NCBI GenBank assembly: GCA_015231955.1
Contig: JADGAN010000017.1
Location: 1-64,000, forward strand
Origin: Oligoflexia bacterium
Lineage (GTDB): Bacteria > Bdellovibrionota > Bacteriovoracia > Bacteriovoracales > Bacteriovoracaceae
DNA: 64,000 bases
Direction of reading: 5' to 3'
Shown here in pieces: positions 62,607 to 64,000 of the stretch (its first letter is position 1; each line of letters starts with the position of its first letter). The notes under the pieces were generated by a model, which had not been told where the DNA came from, did no database searches, and was given only the letters and a program-made list of their open reading frames with translations. Position numbers and translations under genes: made by a program.

Positions 62607-64000
62607 TTACTTACAGGCAACGGCAGTAGCAGTTGGGCCATTTTGAAGAGCAGCAAGCATCTGTGATGTCATGGCCACATTCTCATCTTGTAAGATCTCG
62701 AGAAGTTTGCTCTTAAGTTCTTCAATCTCCATCGCATCTTTTGTTGTGGTGACTACAACATTAGGAAATTTAGGTTTTAAATCCATGGGTATTTTTTTAA
62801 ACTTCTTGCCACGAGCAAACCTATCAACCAATTTGCTAAAATCTTCACCACTGATGCTTCCTTTCTTCATCAGTTTATCCACAATTGCTTGCTCTAAAGG
62901 CCAGTGAGCTAGTAAATACTCTTTTGCATAGATAAGGCCCAAATTAAGTAGTTCTTCAACTTTCTTGGAGACGGCCGCTGCAGTAGGGCCACCAAGCATT
63001 GGTTTCCCATCCACCATCGGAATCGATTCCAGCCCTGGAGCGAGCCCAAACTTCACCACTGCGTCGGTAGCAATAGTTCTGGCCGACTGCAAATCACTTG
63101 ACCAGCCTGCACTCGTTTTACCAGTGGCCAATCTTTCTCCAACGCTACCTGCGACTGCGGAAGCAATGTGATTGAGAGTTGTTGCAATGGTTTCACTAGG
63201 ATAATAGTTAGGAACTGCACCGTAACGGGTGTATCCTAAAGCTTGCCCGGCAGGTAACACCGTAATGAACTCCACCTCTTTTCCGGAAGAGTCAGGATCA
63301 TTGGCGAGTGCATGGCCAGTCTCGTGATAAGCGGTGGTCTCTCCTACATGTTTGGGAACTAAGATTTTCCCTCGTGTAAGTGCGGTAATATCTCTTGAGA
63401 TATCGGTATCAGCAGTCGTTGTGCCCTTTAAGAAAAGTTTGGCATTTAAATTTGCCTGACGTTTGAACGACCTCTCTACGAAGGGAAGTTTAGGCATATT
63501 ATCGCTCATGGATAATTTTACCGTAGCTCCAACTAGTGATTTGGGATCAGCAATCTTGGCACTAATGACATTAGAGAGAAGATCACTCACTTGTGTTTGA
63601 ATAAACTCTTTTAAACTTCTCGCGCCTTGCTTATGGTTAAAGAAGGCCGCTTCCATTTTTGTAAAGAAATCGGGATCGGCATCCAGAGTAAAACCATAAC
63701 TTTTTGCCAGTGCGGTGGCCTCGCCTTGTAAAAGTTTATTCGCAATTGCTGCACGCTCGGTTGATAGTAGTGGCTTGGTTAAAAACACACCGGAGAAGCG
63801 TCCACCGAGCGCCTCAGGAAAACCTGACTCGGTTAAAATATTAAGTGTACTTTCTCGATCCTTATAGCGATTCCAAGTTGCCAAAAGCATATCGTCGCTA
63901 CTTCCATCCAGGAAGAGGTTTTCTCCGTCGTTGCCAGTGGCCACAAAAATATACTTCGAAAGATCATATTCGTTACCACGTGGACTCGACCACTTGCCTT
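62607..64000 (-). CDS. AAA+ ATPase (HSP100/Clp-like) fused to an M41 (FtsH-type) metallopeptidase domain, 5' end outside the window
   Basis: The frame is open to the right edge; an internal GTG at 63944 is not a real start, since KWSSPRGNEYDLSKYIFVAT continues upstream. Residues before about 135 (from 63944) resemble the end of a ClpB-like D2 AAA module: SKYIFVATGND, RFSGVFLTKPL, FFNHKQGARSLKEFIQTQV. A linker then leads to an M41 peptidase domain with zinc motif HETGH (YHETGHAL), QALGYTRYG, and SAGWSSDLQSAR, where the Asp in SSDL matches the third ligand of FtsH (NDL). FtsH has a classic-AAA module, so a Clp-type partner is unusual. Processive proteolysis in the cytoplasm is inferred. Confidence 0.7.
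   Translation of the reverse strand, partial: GKWSSPRGNEYDLSKYIFVATGNDGENLFLDGSSDDMLLATWNRYKDRESTLNILTESGFPEALGGRFSGVFLTKPLLSTERAAIANKLLQGEATALAKSYGFTLDADPDFFTKMEAAFFNHKQGARSLKEFIQTQVSDLLSNVISAKIADPKSLVGATVKLSMSDNMPKLPFVERSFKRQANLNAKLFLKGTTTADTDISRDITALTRGKILVPKHVGETTAYHETGHALANDPDSSGKEVEFITVLPAGQALGYTRYGAVPNYYPSETIATTLNHIASAVAGSVGERLATGKTSAGWSSDLQSARTIATDAVVKFGLAPGLESIPMVDGKPMLGGPTAAAVSKKVEELLNLGLIYAKEYLLAHWPLEQAIVDKLMKKGSISGEDFSKLVDRFARGKKFKKIPMDLKPKFPNVVVTTTKDAMEIEELKSKLLEILQDENVAMTSQMLAALQNGPTATAVACK

Follow-up and report, generated by a model that had tools for sequence, protein, structure and literature searches.

An HSP100-M41 protein family in Bdellovibrionota, probably exported AAA+ metalloproteases

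Domain architecture of the gene at the right edge

The stretch analysed here (the window) comprises the first 64,000 nucleotides of contig JADGAN010000017.1 from the Oligoflexia bacterium assembly GCA_015231955.1, and at its right edge it cuts through a gene for an AAA+ protein with an M41 peptidase domain. The reading frame at 62607-64000 on the minus strand stays open up to the edge, and contains the C-terminal 463 codons and the stop codon of this gene. On the complete contig, which is 99.5 kb long (G000:C23), the open reading frame (ORF) starts at 67130 and finishes at 62607 (1507 codons; L003:7608-12131, minus strand), and a ribosome-binding-like AAAGGAG lies upstream of its ATG. A sequence-only reading of the window had proposed one Clp/HSP100-like AAA+ module joined to an FtsH-type M41 peptidase. 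The fusion stands in the whole product, P0001, with three AAA+ modules instead of one.

P0001 begins with a predicted signal peptide (residues 1-39; about 67014-67130 on the contig, minus strand, outside the window), followed by a helical repeat-like domain (residues 40-156) and an Ala/Pro/Ser linker (about 157-202) that appears disordered, with a low predicted local distance difference test score (pLDDT), in the AlphaFold2 (AF2) model. The first module, AAA1 (236-500), is ClpB-D1-like, matching Pfam AAA families weakly and Clp D1 by BLAST at 5e-20, and AAA2 (500-872) matches Pfam AAA_2 and ClpB_D2-small. Their Walker A motifs lie outside the window at 66276-66299 and 65409-65432 of the contig (minus strand), as do the Walker A (64317-64340) and Walker B (64074-64097) motifs of AAA3 on the same strand. 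AAA3 (872-1200) matches Pfam AAA_2 at 1.3e-17 and ClpB_D2-small at 2.4e-6, and its best NCBIfam match is ClpB (1.3e-25). The C-terminal part of AAA3 (residues about 1045-1200), defined by Pfam, AF2 and Foldseek, occupies 63531-64000 (minus strand, as for all of the following features) and includes the ClpB D2-small portion. It carries sensor 1 in TGNDGE (63921-63938; N1067 at 63930-63932), an Arg finger of the HSP100-D2 type in PEALGGRF (63795-63818; R1111 at 63798-63800) and sensor 2 in GARSLKEF (63603-63626; R1171 at 63618-63620). The Peptidase_M41 domain (residues about 1264-1434; 62829-63341) was found with Pfam PF01434 both in the genome search and as an isolated segment (76 bits, E=3.9e-21), with the zinc motif HETGH (residues 1269-1273) at 63312-63326 and the distal zinc ligand Asp1346, in the context GWSSDLQ, at 63093-63095. 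The expectation of an M41 half with HETGH and a distal Asp as in FtsH was thus borne out, and the M41 residues align.

The motors are of HSP100, not FtsH, ancestry, as the earlier reading had suggested from the visible motifs. The window genome also encodes an ordinary FtsH, about 653 amino acids long and distinct from P0001, to which AAA3 aligned over 43 residues (E=5e-4), versus about 310 residues for Clp D2 (E=1e-17). The NCBIfam models of FtsH matched P0001 with their peptidase half only (positions 406-597 of the equivalog model), and no FtsH ATPase model matched the ATPase half in segment-wise Pfam and NCBIfam searches. The second region of homology (SRH), which reads TNRVDVLDPALLRPGRFDRR in the true FtsH of this genome, was sought in P0001 and not found; the 5' part recovered beyond the window likewise contains no classic FtsH AAA module or SRH. 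P0001 falls below the equivalog cut-offs of ClpB (270 bits vs 1232) and ClpA (233 vs 993), and its AAA2 and AAA3 give weak matches to the Torsin profile. Single-chain AF2 models supported the assignment. The model of residues 860-1507 (pLDDT 86.1) gave its best Foldseek matches to nucleotide-binding domain 2 (NBD2) of ClpB/ClpC, with AAA3 superposed on ClpB NBD2 (4fd2, TMt 0.84), and the AAA3-M41 pair aligned to apo-FtsH (3kds) across 568 columns. In the model of residues 40-893 (pLDDT 85.5), AAA1-AAA2 matched ClpC/ClpB double-ring protomers. A short beta-rich extension follows D2-small in the models of both AAA2 and AAA3.

Family members, conservation and predicted export

We built a profile of the AAA3-M41 core from six sequences of relatives and ran it on 369 Bdellovibrionota genomes. 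The search yielded at least 47 members that are complete or nearly so, in about 44 of the 369 genomes, distributed over 14 or more families, which apart from that of the window genome are related to it at the phylum level only. The phylum is identified as Bdellovibrionota through G160, which encodes a protein about 97% identical to Bd0816 of Bdellovibrio, and the window genome would fit Bacteriovoracaceae. Most members have about 840-1600 amino acids (one has 2327) and one to three recognisable AAA+ modules, and the family plan is a Sec signal peptide, a helical N-domain, one to three HSP100-type AAA+ modules and an M41 zinc peptidase. Among 32 aligned members, the identity to P0001 is about 20-58%; the closest relative (G103, from the same taxonomic family; 58% over the core) is split into several ORFs, and single-ORF members sit on long contigs too (L074, L097).

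The Walker A Gly and Lys, Walker B Glu, sensor-1 Asn, Arg-finger Arg and the His, Glu and second His of the zinc motif do not vary among the 47 aligned members, the distal zinc Asp is present in 46 and the sensor-2 Arg in 40. Since the AAA3 ATPase residues are invariant across 47 strongly diverged sequences, nucleotide hydrolysis appears to be under selection. The Walker B of AAA2, by comparison, ends in NE, not DE, in most members including P0001. In a tree of M41 domains, a single edge (support 0.943) separated the 47 members from 26 FtsH proteins of many phyla, and the members fell into three clades.

One clade has HExxxH in place of HExxH (HEVYGH, HEVEGH or HETEGH; L038:4474-9171, L098:969-5603, L110:1-1941 and L099:1801-5385), with the distal Asp retained in three of the four; judging from these motifs, its peptidase may be inactive or have a different zinc geometry. 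In a 1.2-Mb genome that is 95% complete (G244), the gene of a short member (L219:579-3437), in which a single motor can be recognised, adjoins a gene for a 1209-residue protein with a signal-like N-terminus.

N-termini were evaluated with a home-made score, not SignalP, that considers a basic n-region, an uncharged h-region and the -3/-1 rule at all possible starts. The score was passed by 40 of 49 family ORFs and fragments; after discounting one false pass, in which the Walker A region of a fragment had been scored, 39 remained, and the failing ORFs are fragmented or cut by contig ends. Thus, a signal peptide was predicted in all 39 members with an assessable N-terminus, including P0001, each with the n-region charge, h-region and -3/-1 site of Sec signals, while none of 25 ClpA/ClpB controls from relatives passed. 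The mean net charge of the members around the hydrophobic segment is +2.5 before and -0.4 after it. In one genome (G047), the signal is encoded by an upstream ORF that is in frame with the main ORF and divided from it by one TAG (L034:4739-4741); this TAG may reflect a sequencing error, a pseudogene or readthrough. No transmembrane-like segment was found beyond residue 90 in any member, in agreement with the earlier remark that the visible part shows no sign of FtsH transmembrane segments. The accompanying proposal of a new soluble protease holds in that FtsH-type membrane anchoring is absent; it needs amending in that the protein is most likely exported rather than cytosolic, because its N-terminus is a Sec-type signal peptide.

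Within the sampled genomes, the family is limited to Bdellovibrionota. Five sets from other phyla (52, 297, 195, 349 and 198 genomes, with sets two and five taken from one phylum) contained no main-clade member at a strict cut-off of 1e-52, which could miss the most diverged clades, and the set of 52 gave only ClpB-type matches at a looser cut-off. No relative was detected in viral contigs, plasmids gave Clp-type proteins only, and a scan of genome contigs named only FtsH and Clp genes of other phyla and no family member. A literature search, with most subscription journals outside its reach, returned no description of an HSP100-M41 architecture.

Genomic partners, site of action and the ATP question

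In four genomes (G151, G179, G207 and G264), the protease gene adjoins genes for large proteins with signal-like N-termini. Most of these neighbours contain a nucleotidyltransferase (NTase)-like segment ('LFGGTA...QDLDIVVD'), recognised by eye and not by a profile, and several also have ankyrin-like and FGE-sulfatase domains. In G047, a single ORF encodes the protease with homologous partner domains (48% identity) appended at its C-terminus. The window genome has nine paralogous NTase-like proteins with hydrophobic signal-like N-termini on other contigs (L258:1878-4811, L259:2795-5413, L259:5410-8310, L260:1857-5642, L261:1876-4734, L262:990-4295, L263:2077-5286, L264:191-2623 and L265:1521-4451), in which the NTase-like domain is accompanied by another conserved domain that, by eye, may be ART-like, and most of which end in ankyrin repeats or repeats of about 33 residues (HWKDHPEWVE). 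The NTase part was found in 5 of the 35 genomes that have the protease and in none of 40 that lack the protease (Fisher p=0.019, kinship ignored). At another locus (G265), the member is preceded by predicted exported PrkA-like AAA, large AAA and SpoVR-DUF444 (vWA) proteins, so that four consecutive proteins carry signal-like N-termini (L250:3762-6269, L250:6335-11686, L229:2683-5844 and L229:6097-9984); from its composition, the locus looks like an exported PrkA/YeaH/SpoVR system. In G268, a predicted exported circularly permuted ATP-grasp protein (L226:3398-6595) is encoded between two AAA-M41 genes. For several of these partner families, nucleotide use is usually placed in the cytosol.

At the window locus itself, a gene on the same strand (contig 67152-68291; L003:12153-13292) ends 21 bases upstream of the ATG of the AAA+/M41 gene. 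Its product starts with a signal-like segment and contains VDHHYYE, a motif reminiscent of DHH phosphoesterases; it gave no significant Pfam match. A 1012-residue leucine-rich-repeat protein with a signal-like N-terminus is encoded nearby (contig 69985-73023; L003:14986-18024). No Rfam family matched within the window.

We conclude that these proteins probably constitute a new Bdellovibrionota HSP100-M41 family of Sec-exported hexameric AAA+ metalloproteases, acting outside the cytoplasm of the producing cell. The architecture, the conservation and the family itself are direct observations; export, the hexamer, the site of action and the source of ATP are inferences from them. By analogy with FtsH and ClpAP, six chains would assemble into stacked rings, and the motors would pull an unfolded protein through the pore to be cut by the M41 disc on the last ring. 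AAA3 would be the main motor, and AAA2, with its altered Walker B, may be a slow or ATP-holding ring. Action outside the cytoplasm is suggested by the signal peptides, together with the exported genomic partners, and the use of ATP by the invariance of the AAA3 residues. The periplasm is a possible site; a site in or against prey, reached by onward secretion, seems more plausible because ATP is needed. The exported NTase-like, repeat and FGE proteins might act together with the protease.

The bacterial AAA+ proteases FtsH, Lon, Clp and HslUV run on cytosolic ATP. In the usual view, ATP is not expected outside the cytoplasm (BAM review, PMC13067283). Either action of the enzyme inside or on prey or host cells, or extracytoplasmic ATP in these bacteria, would resolve the conflict. 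An ATP/ADP carrier (TLC) was considered as an energy source and rejected, with mostly weak matches in 5 of 35 positive and 4 of 21 negative genomes. We therefore put forward only tentatively, as a possibility that falls short of probable, that proteins are unfolded and degraded outside the cytoplasm of the producing cell with the help of prey or host ATP or of an unknown periplasmic supply, and that the protease is delivered with the multi-copy exported set of NTase-like, repeat and FGE proteins.

Several observations weigh against export and ATP-driven proteolysis. The signal score is permissive, since 47% of the genes at these loci pass it; against this background, 39 passes out of 39 would have a chance probability of about 1e-13 if the members were independent, but they are related. 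Because the score is both home-made and permissive, the argument for export rests on all 39 members passing and the Clp controls failing. The pore-loop aromatics are gone from AAA2 (GIVS) and AAA3 (GHVG) of P0001, which could weaken pulling. The genus Bdellovibrio (g71) gave ClpB-type matches only and no member, and the family is therefore dispensable for predation in general.

The N-terminal hydrophobic segment might instead be an uncleaved anchor, with the ATPase-peptidase tethered to the membrane on its cytoplasmic side, as is the catalytic part of the membrane-anchored FtsH. Although this would remove the ATP problem, we consider it rather unlikely: the single hydrophobic stretch, preceded by basic residues and followed by polar or acidic ones and a -3/-1 site, is oriented and patterned like a cleaved Sec signal, FtsH-like paired helices around a periplasmic domain are missing, and the neighbouring genes likewise encode proteins with signal-like N-termini. 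Alternatively, the protein could be exported and independent of ATP, with the AAA+ rings as a passive cage or scaffold and M41 cutting unfolded exported proteins. An ATP-free periplasm, the Asp-to-Asn change in Walker B of AAA2 and the altered pore loops would fit such a cage, but the invariance of the Walker A Lys, Walker B Glu, sensor 1 and Arg finger of AAA3 argues against it, and we judge it unlikely.

That P0001 is a diverged FtsH paralogue with a merely HSP100-like appearance would explain why its M41 domain matches FtsH models only; the fit of AAA3 to Clp D2 rather than to the genome's own FtsH, the alignment of the FtsH equivalog model through the peptidase half only and the structure comparison all contradict this, making it highly improbable. 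An artefact of assembly or gene prediction joining two genes might be suspected from the draft state of the genome (114 contigs) and the broken ORFs of the closest relative. However, a further 46 sequences have this arrangement, with about 44 genomes represented in all and single ORFs on long contigs among them, so chance or misassembly is excluded for practical purposes. If the exported HSP100-M41 protease is real, it would represent a new protease architecture, in which HSP100 motors are covalently coupled to M41 and signal peptides occur throughout a phylum with known predators, and it raises the question of whether these bacteria have usable ATP beyond their inner membrane or send ATP-driven shredders into prey.

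Comparison with known AAA+ systems

As in FtsH and the i-AAA and m-AAA proteases (MEROPS M41), P0001 combines in one chain an M41 fold with HExxH and a distal Asp and an AAA+ motor directly before the peptidase. Unlike in FtsH, this motor is of the HSP100-D2 type and includes ClpB D2-small, as many as two additional AAA+ modules are present, and the family has a Sec-type signal peptide in place of an N-terminal transmembrane and periplasmic domain. With ClpB, ClpA and ClpC, P0001 shares the D1-D2 tandem, the layout of Walker, sensor and Arg-finger motifs and the ClpC-like predicted structure of AAA1-AAA2; it differs from them in its third AAA+ module, its own peptidase instead of ClpP recruitment, its N-domain and its signal peptide. 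Clp- or M41-related AAA+ proteins outside the cytosol have precedents in torsins (endoplasmic reticulum lumen) and in Skd3/CLPB and YME1L (mitochondrial intermembrane space), none of which is known to unite HSP100 motors with M41 as P0001 does. Both of these compartments are understood to contain ATP.

The G265 locus, with its PrkA-like AAA, DUF444 (vWA-like) and AAA-M41 proteins, also resembles the MoxR-vWA-FtsH ternary conflict systems, in which an FtsH-type AAA+ protein is encoded close to vWA genes and further AAA+ genes (Kaur et al. 2020, PMC7159879). The G265 proteins differ in carrying signal peptides, and vWA/AAA neighbours were observed at this one locus only and not beside the window gene. 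P0001 thus has the M41 feature of FtsH and departs from FtsH in the SRH module, the transmembrane topology and the position in the M41 tree; it has the D1-D2 arrangement and ClpB_D2-small of HSP100 proteins and departs from these in the equivalog cut-offs and the cytosolic feature. Its family looks new, and is best named a new family of HSP100-M41 proteases.
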